A stretch of DNA of 64,000 nt from Altererythrobacter aquiaggeris (lineage in GTDB: Bacteria; Pseudomonadota; Alphaproteobacteria; Sphingomonadales; Sphingomonadaceae), in contig NZ_JBANRL010000001.1 of the NCBI RefSeq assembly GCF_037154015.1, positions 124,001 to 188,000 on the forward strand, read 5' to 3'. A program made the position numbers and the translations under genes. The stretch's first letter is position 1; each line of letters begins with the position of its first letter. Positions 20,533 through 27,287 of this stretch are shown here, piece after piece. The notes under the pieces were generated by a model that saw nothing but the letters and a program-made list of their open reading frames with translations, did not search any database and was not told the origin of the DNA.

Positions 20533-21293
20533 AGCCGTCTGCTCTGGTTCTGGCTGGTTCGCGGGGGGAGCGCGACAGCGTAGCGTTGAAGGAAAATGTG
20601 TCGCACAAGTCGCTTGCGCTGGTCGAAGGCGAAACTCTGCTGGCCCGCGTTATCGGTGCTCTGCGCGATGCCGGATTGACCACTATCAGCGTTTCGGCGG
20701 ATGACCCCGACGTTATGGCCGAAGCGTTGCGGCTGGGTGCCGAAATTTCGCCGCCCGAAAGCGGCCCCAGTGGCAGTGTCGCGCGCGGGTTTGCCGCGTC
20801 AGGCGCTCCGCTGCTGGTGACGACCGCCGATCACGCGCTGCTGAGGGGGGAGTGGGTTACCAGCTTTATTGCGGACCTGCCGGCAGGGGCAGATATCGGC
20901 GTCGCTTTGGCACCGCGCGCAGCGGTCGAAGCTGCTGTGCCGGGCAGCAAGCGAACATATCTGAAATTTGCCGATGGCGAGTGGAGTGGCTGCAATCTTT
21001 TTTTGCTGGCGACGCCGCAAGCCGCGCAAGCGATCGAGGCGTGGCGCTCGGTCGAAGCCAACCGGAAGCGCCCGTGGCGGATTGCCGCGCGCCTTGGCGT
21101 CAGCACTTTGTGGGCCTATTTTCGCGGTCGCCTGACGCTGGACCAGGCCATTGTCAGACTTGGAAAAAGGCTAGGTGTCGAAGCGCGGCTGGTCCCTGCC
21201 AAGGACGGATTGGCGGCTGTCGATGTCGATAAACCGCAGGATCTGGCAGAAGTCCGCATGATTGCGGCGACGGCAAAGACCCGTCAGCGATAG
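20529..21293 (+). CDS. MobA-like NTP transferase family protein
   Basis: A 254-residue protein. It opens LVLAGSRGERDSVALKEN, a variant of the MobA nucleotide loop in which the second basic residue is followed by R-D, then SHKSLALVEGETLLARVIGAL; TTADHALL supplies a metal-binding Asp. The C-terminal part (about 165-225) carries KRPWRIAARLG, which in related sphingomonad proteins accompanies lipid genes. It is TTG-initiated with a four-base overlap (TTGA) with the Tam41-like gene. It probably activates a phosphorylated alcohol or sugar with CTP; the substrate is unknown. It overlaps the convergent DUF2141 gene by ten bases. Confidence 0.7.
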   Translation: MKPSALVLAGSRGERDSVALKENVSHKSLALVEGETLLARVIGALRDAGLTTISVSADDPDVMAEALRLGAEISPPESGPSGSVARGFAASGAPLLVTTADHALLRGEWVTSFIADLPAGADIGVALAPRAAVEAAVPGSKRTYLKFADGEWSGCNLFLLATPQAAQAIEAWRSVEANRKRPWRIAARLGVSTLWAYFRGRLTLDQAIVRLGKRLGVEARLVPAKDGLAAVDVDKPQDLAEVRMIAATAKTRQR

Positions 21294-21772
21294 CGCATCC
21301 GCACATTGATGGATTCAACAGTGTTACCGACCGCAAATGCAGCCTTTTTGTAATTCGGTTTCCCAAGATTGAGGATGTTGATGCTCGGGTTGTTGGAAAT
21401 CGCCCCGCCATCGGAAAAAATGTCTGTCTTGCGGTCACCGTTAAGGTCATGCCGCACCGCCACACCGTATGTGCCGGCACTTGGCGCAGGCAGGCAAAAG
21501 GTCATCGTTCCCGCACGCGCGGGGGTTTCGATCCGGTTGAGCCAGCGACCTTTTTCGAGCCATTCGGACTTTGTTGCCCGATATAGCTGAACGCGCATTG
21601 TGCCGGACCCGCTCTTGACGCCCGTAACTGTCACTTTGACAGCCGGCCCGCTGCCGCGGCATTTGGACATGTCGTTGCTGATTTTTTGTTTGTATTGGCC
21701 ATATGCGGGCGCCGACATGGCAAGGCCGCCAATTGCCAACGCCGCCAAGGCGGTGTTCAGAATTTTTACCAT
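21284..21772 (-). CDS. DUF2141-family exported protein (second copy)
   Basis: A 162-residue protein with a signal peptide (MVKILNTALAALAIGGLAM, cleavage near APAYG). The mature part has the DUF2141 pattern: VKVTVTGVKSGSGTMRVQLY, a strand FCLPAPSAGTYGVAV, RHDLNGDRKTD and GGAISNNP. It is probably periplasmic or secreted, role unknown. The ATG follows GGGGAAG; an upstream in-frame extension has no coding character. It lies downstream of the RiPP exporter gene on the same strand, 118 bases away, but probably is not part of that pathway. Paralogue of the gene at 946-1449. Confidence 0.78.
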   Translation of the reverse strand: MVKILNTALAALAIGGLAMSAPAYGQYKQKISNDMSKCRGSGPAVKVTVTGVKSGSGTMRVQLYRATKSEWLEKGRWLNRIETPARAGTMTFCLPAPSAGTYGVAVRHDLNGDRKTDIFSDGGAISNNPSINILNLGKPNYKKAAFAVGNTVESINVRMRYR

Positions 21773-21890
21773 CAATCTTCCCCTGGTCCCACGCGCCTCG
21801 CATCTAAGGATGGGAGCGCATGGCCAAAATTTGTCCCGGCACACGGCCCGGGTTCGACGTTTTAATAGTCCCGAAGCGCTGAACAGCGAC

Positions 21891-23621
21891 TTAACCCTGG
21901 CAATTGTCCAGGTTCAGTTGCGGCGATCTGACATAACCGTCCTCCAGCTCCCAAACGTGGTCCGCGATGGTTGTCAGCGCTCCGCGGTGCGCGATGATCA
22001 GCATGGTCAGCGTCCCTTTCAGCTGCGTCAAAGCCTTTATCACAGCCGATTCCGAGACACTGTCGAGGGCACTTGTCGCCTCGTCCAGGATAAGCAGACT
22101 AGGGCGAAGAAGCAGCGCCCGGGCGAGTGCGATCCGCTGGCGCTCCCCCCCCGATAGCTGTCTTCCGCCTTCACCAAGTGGGCAGTCAATCCCGCCGGGA
22201 AAATCGAATACGAAATCAGCAGACGCCATCCGGATCGCTGCGGCAAGTCCCGCTTCGCTGGCATCCGGCGCAGCCCAAAACAGGTTTTCCCTGACGCTGC
22301 CACCGAATAGAACCGGTTCCTGCTGCACATACACCACGCCGCGCCGCCACGCGTTTCGCAGGGCGCCGGATAGCGCCCGGCCATCAAGCAGAACTTCGCC
22401 TTTATCGGGCGAAATCAATCCGCCGAAGATATCCGCAACAGTGCTTTTCCCCGCACCCGACGCACCGATCAGCGCGGTGCAGCTGTTAACCGGAAGCGCA
22501 AGGCTGACATCTTTCAAAACCGCTCTTCCCCCGCGCAGGTTGAGCGCCGCATTGCGCAGTTCGATCGCGGAACGCAGTTCCGGTATGGCATCCGCGATCC
22601 AATCGGTTTGCTCTGCAGCGCCTTCTGCCTGCTCGATTAGGCTGCGTGCAGATTGCAATGCAGGTGCGTTGTGAGCCCAGATTTGCCAGCAGGTTTGCAG
22701 CGCGGCAAGCTGGGTCACCGCACGCGCGAACAGCGCGACAAGCGGCAGAATAATTGCCGGCGCCAATTCCCATTTTTCCAGCGCAAGCCAGACGAGCATG
22801 CTGAGCGAAATCGCCGCTGCCGCTTCGAACGCGATCCTGGCCTGGCCGACAACTTCGAGGTATCTTAACTGCGCTGCACGCAAACCGGCAAATCCGCCGC
22901 TTACCCGGACCTCGGAAGCCTGCTCCTTGCCATGCAATTTTATCAGCCGCAGCGCGCCCAGTGTCTCTTCGAGCCGGGCGTGAATAATGTCGTAATTTCG
23001 TTCCAGATCGCGGCCCAATGCAGCAGCGCGGCCGCGCAGCCCGCTATATGCAAACAGGACAAGGAGGCCAGCGACACTGGCGGCGGCAGCGACCAATGGC
23101 GAGATCAGGAAGGCGGCCACGCCAATCGCCGCCAGCCCGAGCAAGATCCGCATGGCTGCAAAGGCACTATCGGCTGCATCACCGACGCGGTCGATCGAGG
23201 AAATCAACAGGGCGCGGTTGGCGCTCTGGTCCATAGTTGACAGCATCCGCCATTCAGCCCGCACCACCGCGCCGATGGTGCGCGCACGCAGCCCGTCGAT
23301 CACTGTGATCTGCAGATTGAACGCCGCCAGCCCGCGCAGATATTCGAACACCGCGCGCAAAATCACCAGCATGGCCGCGGCCACCAGCCATGCTATAGGC
23401 GAAAGCTCAGGCAGCCAGCTGCTTGCAAGTGATCCGGCTGCGGATTGCCCGCCATCGAGCGATGCCAGCAGCGGAACCAGAACAGCAAATCCGGCACCTT
23501 CCAGAACCGCAACCAGACCACTGAGCGCCGCCAGCCAGACCACCTTGCGCAGCCCGGCCAGCGCCAAGAACTGCCGGGCGGAACCGGTTTTTTGTCTCAG
23601 CGTATGTCGTTCACCCGTCAT
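21891..23621 (-). CDS. ABC transporter of the lasso-like RiPP operon (type D)
   Basis: A 576-residue half-transporter: six membrane segments in the first 310 residues, then an ATPase with Walker A GASGAGKST, signature LSGGERQRIALARAL and Walker B LLILDEATSALD. There is no N-terminal C39 peptidase domain, so it exports an already processed product. The ATG overlaps the stop of the cyclase gene (ATGA), so it is coupled to it. It corresponds to the D protein of lasso peptide operons, which exports the mature peptide and gives self-protection. Confidence 0.88.
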   Translation of the reverse strand: MTGERHTLRQKTGSARQFLALAGLRKVVWLAALSGLVAVLEGAGFAVLVPLLASLDGGQSAAGSLASSWLPELSPIAWLVAAAMLVILRAVFEYLRGLAAFNLQITVIDGLRARTIGAVVRAEWRMLSTMDQSANRALLISSIDRVGDAADSAFAAMRILLGLAAIGVAAFLISPLVAAAASVAGLLVLFAYSGLRGRAAALGRDLERNYDIIHARLEETLGALRLIKLHGKEQASEVRVSGGFAGLRAAQLRYLEVVGQARIAFEAAAAISLSMLVWLALEKWELAPAIILPLVALFARAVTQLAALQTCWQIWAHNAPALQSARSLIEQAEGAAEQTDWIADAIPELRSAIELRNAALNLRGGRAVLKDVSLALPVNSCTALIGASGAGKSTVADIFGGLISPDKGEVLLDGRALSGALRNAWRRGVVYVQQEPVLFGGSVRENLFWAAPDASEAGLAAAIRMASADFVFDFPGGIDCPLGEGGRQLSGGERQRIALARALLLRPSLLILDEATSALDSVSESAVIKALTQLKGTLTMLIIAHRGALTTIADHVWELEDGYVRSPQLNLDNCQG

Positions 23622-25525
23622 AGGTCGTTCCGGCCCTCGACATGGCCGACGAATTGCGCTGCCGCAATGGCCCGCGTTATGCCAAGCGAACGCGGATATA
23701 TGTCGGCCGGATGGAGCGGAGTGGCCGCGGGCCATTCGGCAAGCAACGACTGAAGTCTGTCGACATCGATCAATTTTCGCAGTTCCGGATGCGACCTGAT
23801 GTTTTCGGCATAGTCGGAAAGCTCCTGCCTTCGCCGCCCCATCCGGATATGCCAATCGACATTGTGCGCGCCGTGGCGAGGATTGCTGCGCTGCTTTTCG
23901 GGCATGATGTCTTTGGCCAATTGCTTGGCTAGCCAGCGTTCCTGACCGGCTGACACAAATGCGCGCGTCGGCAGGGCAGCTGTAAATTCGAATAGCGGGC
24001 GATAAGCAGTCACGTCACGGTGCCGCAGACCGTAAACCTGCTGGAACGCCAGATTTACATCGGCGGCGCCGCCATCTCCTTCGGAATAGATGGTCCGTTG
24101 CCACAACGCCCTGCCCATAGGGGTTTCAGCGGCATCTGCGCCCGATCTGTGGCGGCGTTTCAAGCCATTGATCGCTTGCGGCATCAGCAATGCACCGTGG
24201 TGTAAAAATGATCTCGAGCGAGCGTGCGCCAGCCCCCGGACGGCTGCCTGAACTGGCTTTGGCATCAGCGGCAAAACCGACAGGCTGGCAAATTTGCGCC
24301 AAACCGGCCGGCTGTCTCCGCGGCGGTGTTTCAGGGTCAGATACAACTCCCGCCAATGCCCCTGCAAAAAGTCCTCGCGGTAGGACCAGCTGCCATCCGC
24401 GCTGAAATTGTCGTTGCCCCGTTCCGCATCAAGCAACCAGTCGCAGCCTTCGCTTTTCGCCTTTGCCCAGACCCCGTGAAACATTCCGATATTGGCGATA
24501 TTGATGGTAGTCATGTCGGATGCCCGAAACAGCTCGCGCAGTTTGTTGTCAAACCCGCCTTCTCTTGTGAAGTGCACATCAAGTCTGGGATGCATTTTGG
24601 CGAAGGCGGATACGAAACCGGCTTCGTCACCCATCAGCGTTTCAGGGACAATTCCGTCCCATTCCTCGTCTGGCCTGAAAGTTACTGCTGTCAGCCGCCG
24701 GTCAGGCGGCGTCTGTTCGAGAATTTCGGCAGCGATCCGGGGTGAGTCCAGCCCGCCGGACAAAGCCAGTGCAGGCTTGGCCGGTGCCGACAACGCACAC
24801 CGCGTCGCATCGCGCAACAATTCGGCGGCGCGGGCGACATAATCCTGCGGGTCGGCGTAATGGATTGGCGTGATATCGCTGGGATCATAAAGCCGGCGTA
24901 GTGAAATACTTCGATCGGGCCGAAGTTCGGTGATGCATCCCTGCGGGACCATCCGGACGCCTTTGTACCATCCGTTCGGATTTTCCGGATCCGCATTTAG
25001 GTAAAGCGATTCTGCCAGATAATCGTAATCGATCCGCTTGGGATGGCCTGCGGCGAAGATCGTCCGAACGACGGTGCTGGCAACCGGACCGTTAGCAGTG
25101 ACGGCATAGTACAGCGGCGGAGCAGTCCAGGGGCTGCGGATCAGGCTTACATTGCCAGATGACGAAAAAATGATCGCGCTATAGGACCCGATCAACCGGA
25201 TATGTGCGGCATCCCCCCAGCGCTGGGCAGCAAGCGCCAAAATGAGCGCATCATTTTGATAGGGTGCCGACAGGAGATCCGCAATTTCGCGGCCATTGTC
25301 GAGCCAGCCGTCAAAGGCAACCTGCAGCCCGGTTTCGCTGGCGGCGAAACAATCCAGCGGTGACCGATTTTTCTGTACCGACGCCGCTGCCAGCCGGGCT
25401 GTGCCCGGAGCCCTCGTTAGCGTAACGCCTTGCGCGTATTTACCCAGCGCAGCCGAAATATCGGCGTCGTGCTGCTTGCCTGAACGACCGGATAGACATG
25501 CAGCGGCAAACCAACCGGCAATCAC
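23618..25525 (-). CDS. Asparagine-synthetase-like RiPP cyclase (lasso C protein)
   Basis: A 635-residue homologue of asparagine synthetase B. The N-terminal Ntn-type domain starts MIAGWFAAAC, without the catalytic Cys2 needed for glutamine hydrolysis, as in lasso cyclases. The ATP pyrophosphatase loop is SGGLDS at 256-261. In lasso pathways this enzyme adenylates an Asp or Glu side chain of the core and joins it to the peptide N-terminus. It starts at GTG, eight bases after the precursor stop. The precursor lacks an obvious acid acceptor, so its exact reaction here is open. Confidence 0.85.
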   Translation of the reverse strand: MIAGWFAAACLSGRSGKQHDADISAALGKYAQGVTLTRAPGTARLAAASVQKNRSPLDCFAASETGLQVAFDGWLDNGREIADLLSAPYQNDALILALAAQRWGDAAHIRLIGSYSAIIFSSSGNVSLIRSPWTAPPLYYAVTANGPVASTVVRTIFAAGHPKRIDYDYLAESLYLNADPENPNGWYKGVRMVPQGCITELRPDRSISLRRLYDPSDITPIHYADPQDYVARAAELLRDATRCALSAPAKPALALSGGLDSPRIAAEILEQTPPDRRLTAVTFRPDEEWDGIVPETLMGDEAGFVSAFAKMHPRLDVHFTREGGFDNKLRELFRASDMTTINIANIGMFHGVWAKAKSEGCDWLLDAERGNDNFSADGSWSYREDFLQGHWRELYLTLKHRRGDSRPVWRKFASLSVLPLMPKPVQAAVRGLAHARSRSFLHHGALLMPQAINGLKRRHRSGADAAETPMGRALWQRTIYSEGDGGAADVNLAFQQVYGLRHRDVTAYRPLFEFTAALPTRAFVSAGQERWLAKQLAKDIMPEKQRSNPRHGAHNVDWHIRMGRRRQELSDYAENIRSHPELRKLIDVDRLQSLLAEWPAATPLHPADIYPRSLGITRAIAAAQFVGHVEGRNDL

Positions 25526-25533
25526 ATCCGCAC

Positions 25534-25668
25534 TTACGACCTGTTGTTAGAGCCGCTGCCTTGCCCGACACCAGTATTCGCCCCGGCGACATCAGCCATT
25601 TTGCCAAGTTTCGCAAGCTCCGGCCTGTTCCATTCTTTCTTGCTTGAAGTCGTGTCACGGTCAGACAT
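25534..25668 (-). CDS. Lasso-like RiPP precursor peptide (44 aa)
   Basis: A short gene between the B2 and cyclase genes, with AGGA seven bases before its ATG. The leader has W13-x2-P16-x-L18-x3-G22, matching the lasso leader pattern Y-x2-P-x-L-x3-G. With canonical spacing the core would begin at G29 or A30 and the leader's usual penultimate Thr is Ala28 (or Val27). The tail (ANTGVGQGSGSNNRS) has no Asp or Glu; the last acid is D26. Gln36 falls at core position 7 or 8, where the macrolactam acceptor normally sits. It is therefore either a non-canonical lasso-type substrate or a different RiPP. It is too short for routine gene callers. Confidence 0.8.
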   Translation of the reverse strand: MSDRDTTSSKKEWNRPELAKLGKMADVAGANTGVGQGSGSNNRS

Positions 25669-25713
25669 GATGGGATCCTGAAAGTCGGTGCAAAATCGCA
25701 TGATCTGCGTAAC

Positions 25714-25738
25714 AAAAGCGCAGCGATTTCGCAAGCGC
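25714..25738 (-). terminator. Hairpin with T-tract between B2 and precursor genes (possible attenuator)
   Basis: On the minus strand GCGC-TT-GCG, loop AAAT, CGC-T-GCGC forms a seven-pair stem with a small internal loop, directly followed by TTTT. It sits in the 101-base gap between the B2 gene and the precursor gene, inside the operon. It looks like a weak intrinsic terminator or attenuator, or a processing/stability stem that sets precursor mRNA level apart from the enzyme genes. Not tested by folding software. Confidence 0.45.
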
Positions 25739-25769
25739 AACAAATTGCCGGGCACATACAGGCTCGCGT

Positions 25770-26195
25770 CTAACCATGCGATATTATCCGGAACAGGTCG
25801 ATATGGGCATCTTGCGTATCGCCAAACACCGGCTGCCGGTTTATTTCGACCCACGCGTGCAGGTCATCGACCGAACCGCGCGTTTCGCCCGGCAATATAC
25901 CGAAAACCAGGGCGGACCTGCACCCTCTGCGCGATAACATGATATGCAGCGCCATCGCCCTTGGCAGGCAAAGGGATGCAGGTAGGCGCTGCCCGGCGCG
26001 GCTGGCAGCGGCAACAAGCGCCCGCACCAATCGCAGATCTGCGGGCTCTACCGGCGGAATGTTCGGGGCGTTCTGGTGCAGGCTGCCCAACCAGCCCCGC
26101 CAACGCCCGAAACTGACCCGGCGAATGACGATCCGGGAAAGCCAAACCAGAACCATCGCTTCCGCGACGCGCAGGCGGTGCCGCCATTTTTCCAT
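25770..26195 (-). CDS. Lasso-type leader peptidase B2 (transglutaminase-like)
   Basis: A 141-residue protein of the Transglut_core3 type. The catalytic triad is visible as C76 (ASLCLPRAMAL), H113 (DLHAWVE) and D126 (FGDTQD), the arrangement of McjB-type leader peptidases. It would cut the precursor at the leader/core border after the RRE partner presents it. Its ATG overlaps the stop of the RRE gene by one base (TGATG). In many lasso systems B1 and B2 are split exactly like this. Confidence 0.88.
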   Translation of the reverse strand: MEKWRHRLRVAEAMVLVWLSRIVIRRVSFGRWRGWLGSLHQNAPNIPPVEPADLRLVRALVAAASRAGQRLPASLCLPRAMALHIMLSRRGCRSALVFGILPGETRGSVDDLHAWVEINRQPVFGDTQDAHIDLFRIISHG

Positions 26196-26458
26196 CAGCA
26201 ATCAATAAAGCCGTTTGCTTCCAGGTCAGCAAGGAAAGCCGCAACATCGGCTTGCACAGTGGCTTCCGGAGCATCGAACAGGGGGAGCAAATACCGCGTC
26301 AGATCTTCCGGACTGCGCACATCATTGATTGCATTCCAGATCGCGAGAGCCGTGTCCCTGAGCGAATAAAACTCGCCATTCGCCAAGCTAACGACAATCA
26401 ATTCGTCATCGACACGGGTTTCGATCAGGTCGGCTTGTCTCTTGCTAATCTTGGTCAT
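26195..26458 (-). CDS. RiPP recognition element protein B1 (PqqD-like)
   Basis: An 87-residue PqqD-family protein: three strands (LIVVSLANGEFYSLRD) followed by helices (TALAIWNAIND, then VQADVAAFLADLEANGFI). This is the RRE fold that binds the precursor leader and delivers it to the B2 peptidase and the cyclase. The ATG used begins the conserved domain; a long in-frame extension upstream enters the rpe gene region and is not coding. First gene of the five-gene operon, with a 166-base divergent promoter region shared with rpe. Confidence 0.88.
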   Translation of the reverse strand: MTKISKRQADLIETRVDDELIVVSLANGEFYSLRDTALAIWNAINDVRSPEDLTRYLLPLFDAPEATVQADVAAFLADLEANGFIDC

Positions 26459-26624
26459 GGTCGTGATTTCAGTTCCGGTTTCAGTGAATATAGCGGGTCT
26501 GACTGCAAAAAGGTCATTATTGTAGGCAAACTGGTCTGGCCAGTGTGGAAAAGGCTGCGCGGTAACTTGTGAGCGCATTAGGGGGGTTGTAGTCGCGGTG
26601 CTTCCAAGAAACTCTGGCGCCACC

Positions 26625-27287
26625 ATGACCGCTCCGCTGATATCTCCTTCGATCCTGTCTGCCGATTTCGCCCGGCTGGGCGAAGAAGTGCGTGCCATGG
26701 ATCAGGCCGGCGCGGACTGGATCCATGTGGATGTGATGGACGGACATTACGTGCCCAACATTACAATCGGCCCCGCGGTCGTGAAGGCGCTGCGCCCGCA
26801 TACGGCAAAGATATTTGATGTCCATTTGATGATCTCGCCGGTTGATGCCTTTCTCGAAGATTTTGCCGCGGCGGGTGCCGACATCATCACCATTCATCCC
26901 GAGGCCGGGGCGCACAGCCACCGGACGGTTCAGGCAATCAAGGGACTGGGCAAGAAAGCGGGCATTTCGCTCAATCCCGGAACTGCGGTGGGCGAGCTCG
27001 ACTATCTGATCGACGACATTGACCTGGTGCTGATCATGAGCGTCAATCCCGGTTTTGGCGGCCAGAGCTTTATTTCCAGCCAGTTGCGCAAGATTGAGGC
27101 AGTCCGCCGGATGATTGACCGGACCGGCCGCGCAATCCATCTCGAAGTTGATGGCGGTGTAAATCCCGAAACCGCGCGCCGATGCGTGGACGCAGGGGCT
27201 GATGTGCTGGTGGCCGGATCGGCAACTTTCAAGGGCGGGCCCACGCAATATGCTGCCAATATCGCCGCCCTGAAGGGCAACGGGTGA
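26625..27287 (+). CDS. rpe: Ribulose-phosphate 3-epimerase
   Basis: A 220-residue TIM-barrel enzyme that interconverts ribulose 5-phosphate and xylulose 5-phosphate in the pentose phosphate and Calvin pathways. Family motifs are clear: [28 protein letters not shown] (metal ligands), [18 protein letters not shown] and LEVDGGV with [13 protein letters not shown]. The ATG at 26625 matches the usual start; nine codons upstream are open but unconserved. Divergent from the RiPP operon; its stop overlaps the next gene. Confidence 0.97.

Follow-up and report, generated by a model that had tools for sequence, protein, structure and literature searches.

Lasso peptides are defined by an isopeptide bond to Asp or Glu, and the rules used to mine genomes for them require that acid at core position 7-9. 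The closest described systems to the locus analyzed here are lasso peptides with split B1/B2 proteins and a C-terminal Ser kinase, such as paeninodin and SyanA/SyanK of Sphingobium yanoikuyae, and Ile(-2) lasso peptides such as Bradymonas BsfA. The present operon resembles these in its RRE, B2 peptidase, Asn-synthetase-like cyclase C and exporter, in the aromatic-xxPxL leader and the C-terminal Ser of its precursor, and in an Ile/Val(-2) residue like that of BsfA. It differs in that the acceptor column of its precursor family is Gln (or Glu) rather than Asp, in the Gly/Ser/Asn/Pro-rich cores, in a GxH instead of a GxQ cyclase loop and in the absence of a kinase from the operon. No Gln-acceptor lasso peptide was found in the literature library searched, which did not extend to the cyclase-engineering study PMC12373128 or to the supplements listing Sphingomonadales Ile/Val(-2) precursors. 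The ring-closing enzyme of this operon probably performs chemistry not yet described for its enzyme family.

The operon and its precursor

The analyzed window is a stretch of 64,000 nucleotides from Altererythrobacter aquiaggeris (contig NZ_JBANRL010000001.1, positions 124,001 to 188,000). The original prediction, that the window carries a lasso-like operon whose precursor lacks an acidic ring acceptor, was confirmed. All five genes are located on the minus strand (Table 1), with overlaps at B1/B2 (TGATG) and C/D (ATGA).

Table 1. Features of the operon and its flanks, in window coordinates
Coordinates	Strand	Feature	Description and supporting matches
26598..27287	+	rpe (ribulose-phosphate 3-epimerase, probable)	Conserved left edge of the operon's site; not part of the pathway
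26195..26458	-	B1	PqqD-type RiPP recognition element (RRE), 87 aa; PF05402 8e-15; NF033536 6.4e-10 (below its strict cut-off)
25770..26201	-	B2	Leader peptidase, transglutaminase-like cysteine protease with C76/H113/D126 (numbered from an alternative ATG start at 26195); NF033537 62.7 bits (cut-off 33); PF13471 4.3e-17
25534..25668	-	Precursor A	44 aa; leader W13..P16.L18...G22...D26V27A28; inferred core G29-S44 (GANTGVGQGSGSNNRS)
23618..25525	-	C	Asn-synthetase-like cyclase, 635 aa; SGGLDS at 256-261; HGAHNVDW loop (551-558) in place of the acid-type [RK]GxQxxDW; no Cys2 glutaminase residue; PF00733 above cut-off; weak NF033561/NF033535 lasso-cyclase hits below cut-off
21891..23621	-	D	ABC exporter, 576 aa; PF00005 7.3e-30; PF00664
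21284..21844	-	DUF2141-type secreted protein (putative)	Conserved right edge of the site, present also without the operon

The precursor reads MSDRDTTSSKKEWNRPELAKLGKMADVAGANTGVGQGSGSNNRS, with no Asp or Glu after D26. It is not a chance open reading frame, as homologous precursors lie next to the cyclase in about 50 other genomes. A search of the same genome returned no other precursor-like hit (next best E 0.2) and only one match to this cyclase. The original prediction placed Gln36 at core position 7 or 8. This can be refined in that Gln36 is at position 8 if the core starts at the conserved Gly29 (Val at -2), and at position 7 by strict Y(-17) spacing. The missing Thr(-2), which was also noted in the original prediction, is less unusual than it appeared: Ile/Val(-2) leaders, although a minority, are reported for lasso peptides of Sphingomonadales, Acidobacteriaceae and Bradymonadales (PMC10368454).

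Conservation of core position 8 and of the cyclase loop

A further 53 precursors from the same cyclase clade were collected within one GTDB family and compared with that of the window. Counting from Gly29 as residue 1, position 8 is Gln in 47 of 54 precursors; two have Gln9, three have Glu8 and two oddities have Asn9. Thirty-two of the 54 cores lack any acid and 37 have no Asp or Glu at positions 7-9. The entropy at position 8 is 0.83 bit, compared with 2.0-3.4 at core positions 2-7 and 9-14. Spacing from the leader to Gln8 is fixed while the tail varies from 4 to 18 residues, as expected for a ring. The Gln codons (CAG 35, CAA 10) indicate selection on the residue. The Glu8 members form two lineages (homologous loci L049 and L051+L114) that nest inside the Gln clade (SH-aLRT 99), and the acceptor states need only 4 changes. 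Sister cyclases in the same family (L063-L065, L067 and L073) share the leader motif and the C-terminal Ser, but have precursors with Asp8/Asp9, carry the GxQxxDW loop and are not located at the same chromosomal site.

The cyclases of the clade keep the ATP motif but share changes elsewhere. At the GxQxxDW position, 50 of 53 have His (46) or Trp (4), whereas Gln is found in 28 of 33 others. By HMM alignment, this position lies in the loop that carries Lys443 of beta-lactam synthetase. An AlphaFold model of C is predicted with high confidence (pLDDT 91), and its nearest folds are TsnB9 hydroxyamidotransferase, beta-lactam synthetase and asparagine synthetase (Foldseek probability 1.00, TM about 0.5-0.65). 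These share the ATP-pyrophosphatase SGG motif with C but act on small carboxylates and are only 12-16% identical over the aligned structure. C residue 368 aligns with the SGE Glu of TsnB9, but a reacquired catalytic acid at this position was rejected since only about two thirds of the clade has Asp or Glu there. The cyclase changes are one clade event shared by Gln and Glu members and do not by themselves show amide specificity.

Proposed ring closure and its alternatives

The reading that is somewhat more likely than not is that this is a lasso-derived RiPP operon of a distinct, mostly vertically inherited clade, in which the ring-closing residue is Gln (occasionally Glu) at core position 8. 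In this model, B1 binds the WxxPxLxxxG leader, B2 cuts before Gly29 to free the alpha-amine, the ATP-dependent cyclase joins that amine to the side-chain carboxamide carbon of Gln36, and D exports the product. The result would be an 8-residue N-terminal macrocycle with a Gly/Ser/Asn-rich, Lys/Arg-Ser-ended tail. No product is known, and the cleavage site, the bond, ATP activation of the amide and the topology are inferred. The original prediction allowed for a different acceptor, a ring made elsewhere or a different RiPP class sharing lasso enzymes; the homologues favor the first of these over a ring made elsewhere, although the chemistry is unproven. The simplest product is an isopeptide lactam, formed with a net loss of NH3. 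A cyclic amidine, formed with loss of H2O (18.011 Da) after adenylation of the Gln8 carboxamide oxygen and attack by the N-terminal amine, is unlikely but not excluded. This would be a new reaction for lasso-type cyclases and a new RiPP subclass, with Glu8 members giving the lactam. The nearest known product would then probably be the bottromycin macroamidine, which appears to depend on a different enzyme family (YcaO), and no YcaO was seen in the operon. Several homologues have tails of 4-6 residues without aromatic plugs, so an unthreaded lariat is possible for at least those. Some evidence weighs against Gln8 as the acceptor, in that known lasso systems tolerate substitution poorly at the acidic residue (PMC13352647), the clade members L066 and L112 have neither Gln8 nor Glu8, and the C-terminal Ser is even more conserved than Gln8 (56 of 57 precursors) and could carry another function.

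Several alternatives were considered, each of which is less well supported. Gln8 could first be deamidated to Glu by B2, by C itself or by a host enzyme and then closed by ordinary lasso chemistry to give the same lactam. Glu8 members nested in the Gln clade imply that Gln and Glu are interchangeable, and B2 belongs to a transglutaminase-like superfamily, some members of which may deamidate Gln. However, no extra conserved gene lies in the operon, the N-terminal glutaminase-like domain of C lacks Cys2, and it is unclear why selection would keep Gln in 47 of 54 precursors if an acid is all that is needed; this possibility is unlikely. It is more doubtful that Gln8 is only a recognition residue and that the cyclase activates the C-terminal Ser carboxylate to make a head-to-tail ring. 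The C-terminal Ser is found in 56 of 57 precursors, with Lys/Arg before it in 38 of 57, and several tails are too short or plug-less for comfortable threading. This Ser is also present in the Asp-type sister precursors and is the phosphorylation site in paeninodin-type lasso peptides (PMC9266682), so it is ancestral, and conservation at exactly core position 8 with Glu as the main alternative fits an acceptor better.

Least likely is that the cyclase has lost ring-closing activity and that the product is a linear or phosphorylated peptide signal. Loss of the exporter in some members and replacement of B2 suggest relaxed or changed function, but the ATP motif is intact across the clade (SAGLDS in L039), many active-site positions are near-invariant and the precursor ring region keeps Gln/Glu8. 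Cleavage just before Gln8 to give an N-terminal Gln or pyroglutamate would also explain Gln/Glu exchange; although not separately tested, it does not fit the DVA|G spacing and would put a variable ring-like stretch in the leader. If Gln8 is the acceptor, the clade would extend the chemistry of Asn-synthetase-like cyclases, reveal a group of peptides that acid-based mining rules would miss and offer a cyclase for making peptides closed on Gln.

Genomic site, leader peptidase and kinase-like genes

The clade was found in roughly a tenth of the sampled genomes of this family. The operon sits at one conserved site (rpe–operon–DUF2141), with rpe next to the operon in about 50 genomes and next to the DUF2141-type gene in operon-less genomes. 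The fixed chromosomal site suggests a resident physiological role rather than a mobile antibiotic. Some operons lack B2 and initially appeared to represent a different pathway, but another B2 gene was found elsewhere in every such genome sampled. In total, B2 is present in cis or in trans in 30 of 30 genomes sampled with the operon versus 9 of 25 without (Fisher 7e-8, a test that ignores relatedness), so a free N-terminus seems needed. Simple relocation of B2 was rejected because most trans-B2 genes form a different clade, and for this reason co-occurrence is not proof of use.

Unlike the paeninodin-type clusters, the operon in the window has only 139 bp between B1 and rpe, so no kinase gene is located there. 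HPr-kinase-like hits lie just upstream of C in some members of the clade (genomes G222, G180 and G094), and such hits also occur elsewhere in all sampled genomes.

Operon and collection of related precursors

The original prediction described a lasso-like RiPP operon in which B1, B2, a precursor, a cyclase and an exporter are encoded on one strand, with overlaps at B1/B2 and cyclase/exporter. All five genes are present as proposed, on the minus strand and with these overlaps. B2, which carries C76/H113/D126, passes the curated lasso B2 model and B1 is a PqqD-type RRE, while C is an Asn-synthetase-like protein that matches the curated lasso cyclase models only weakly, below cut-off, and D is an ABC exporter. 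The precursor is MSDRDTTSSKKEWNRPELAKLGKMADVAGANTGVGQGSGSNNRS and, as originally predicted, has no Asp/Glu after D26. The host genome (2.64 Mb, two contigs) has one match to this cyclase and no further precursor. Its other Asn-synthase-family hits are one strong hit, not further identified, and weak local ones.

Location of the operon site and of the other strong Asn-synthase-family hit
Feature	Position	Sequence
Operon site (rpe / DUF2141-type gene)	21284-27287	window
Strong Asn-synthase-family hit	1.27 Mb	host genome

Related cyclases were found in 52 of 301 genomes of the family at E<=1e-20, and more were recovered from order and class searches. The neighbourhoods of these cyclases were then retrieved and searched with a leader profile built only from the leader residues W..DVA, so that the core was not used for detection. 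The first members used to build the profile had themselves been found with a leader motif and not a core motif. Two precursors with unusual starts, from loci L036 and L050, were added by reading the frames. The resulting collection consists of 54 precursors in the window's cyclase clade plus 3 from an Asp-type sister clade. One locus, L048 in genome G016, encodes two precursors in tandem, both with Gln8 (GKPVPFRQAHNNRKS and GKPVPVLQDAGNRKS).

Acceptor position and cyclase sequence

When the core is taken to start right after DVA/DIA, position 8 is Gln in 47/54 precursors and Glu in 3, and Gln9 occurs in 2. The entropy at position 8 is 0.83 bit, against 2.0-3.4 for core positions 2-7 and 9-14. 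The frequency of Gln elsewhere in the cores is 3%, which gives a nominal binomial probability of 1e-63, although this value ignores shared ancestry. Both CAG (35) and CAA (10) codons are used. Thirty-two of the 54 cores have no acid at all and 37 have none at positions 7-9. Sister groups have Asp9 (loci L063-L065) or, in more distant ones, Asp8 (locus L067). On the cyclase tree the Gln/Glu clade (55 rows) has an SH-aLRT support of 99, Glu8 occurs in two separated places that are each next to Gln8 relatives, and acceptor states need only four changes. This pattern fits a ring acceptor in which a carboxamide has replaced a carboxylate, with occasional return to (or retention of) the acid.

The ATP motif SGGLDS of the cyclase is intact, with the cyclase of locus L039 reading SAGLDS. 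The predicted structural model is confident (pLDDT 91.1) and matches the folds of TsnB9, beta-lactam synthetase and asparagine synthetase. Compared with acid-type relatives, the clade shares several changes, namely Phe283 versus Ser/His/Ala, Gln545 versus Val/Ile, Ala367 versus Gly, frequent loss of the basic residue before the loop Gly, and His (46) or Trp (4) among 53 rows at the position that is Gln in 28/33 others (GxQxxDW to GxHxxDW). The HMM alignment with beta-lactam synthetase puts this loop at the Lys443 region. These are clade-level changes shared by the Glu8 members, so they are a hypothesis about amide handling and not a proof. Two genomes of one genus (G199, locus L066, and G769, locus L112) carry a fast-evolving version at the same chromosomal site, whose precursors have neither Gln8 nor Glu8 but Asn9 in both, and whose cyclases have Thr at the loop position (GxT instead of GxH).

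Leader peptidase and chromosomal site

The operon sits between rpe (plus a heparinase-like gene) and a DUF2141-type gene in almost all members, including loci L031-L060 and L092-L112, which span many genera. Operon-less relatives such as genomes G148, G004 and G017 have precise empty sites, with rpe and the DUF2141-type gene 200-330 bp apart, so this is one fixed site, which is unusual for a RiPP cluster. In a few members the exporter is missing from the locus, and in L033-L037, L054 and L099 the DUF2141-type gene directly follows C in such a reduced operon.

B2 is missing from the operon in a large subclade, but every one of 30 genomes sampled has a B2-type protein somewhere, against 9 of 25 genomes without the cyclase (Fisher 7e-8). 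Genome G148, from a genus where the operon is common, lacks both. Most of the B2 genes encoded in trans form a separate clade, so this looks like replacement. The B2-type peptidases encoded away from the operon (loci L121-L135) sit in one genus beside an ABC transporter and, in two of its genomes, an HPr-kinase-like gene, and in several others beside unrelated genes such as an acyl-CoA dehydrogenase-like gene. The co-occurrence of B2 with the cyclase supports a need for leader removal and a free N-terminus.

Possible ring chemistry and topology of the product

The best supported mechanism, which is inferred, is the formation of an 8-residue ring between the N-terminal amine and the Gln8 side chain, catalysed by C. 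Three chemical routes to such a product remain. The lactam could form by direct transamidation or with the assistance of ATP, in either case with loss of ammonia, or the same lactam could result from deamidation of Gln8 to Glu followed by canonical chemistry. Alternatively, adenylation of the amide oxygen could lead to an amidine with loss of water. Enzymes of the wider ATP-pyrophosphatase group probably adenylate amide-type oxygens (argininosuccinate synthetase on citrulline, QueC on an amide) and YcaO enzymes appear to make the bottromycin macroamidine, so this last route is chemically reasonable but unproven here.

Reviews state that lasso cyclases activate Asp or Glu at positions 7-9 (PMC9266682, PMC8498205) and that the acidic residue tolerates substitution poorly (PMC13352647). 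The nearest described groups are the kinase-type lasso peptides with a C-terminal Ser (PMC9266682) and those with Ile/Val(-2) (PMC10368454). No report of a Gln acceptor was found in the literature searched, which did not extend to subscription papers and supplements. The operon is real, conserved and unexplained by known lasso rules. It is of the lasso type among RiPPs, but membership as a lasso peptide fails on the acidic acceptor.

Tails of 4-6 residues occur in eleven precursors and almost all tails lack aromatic plugs. Threading is therefore uncertain and a lasso fold is not claimed. In the longer tails, Lys/Arg at the penultimate position (38/57) could act as a plug. The precursor cores of loci L046, L053, L110 and L111 have two Cys residues and are possibly a disulfide-bearing subgroup.
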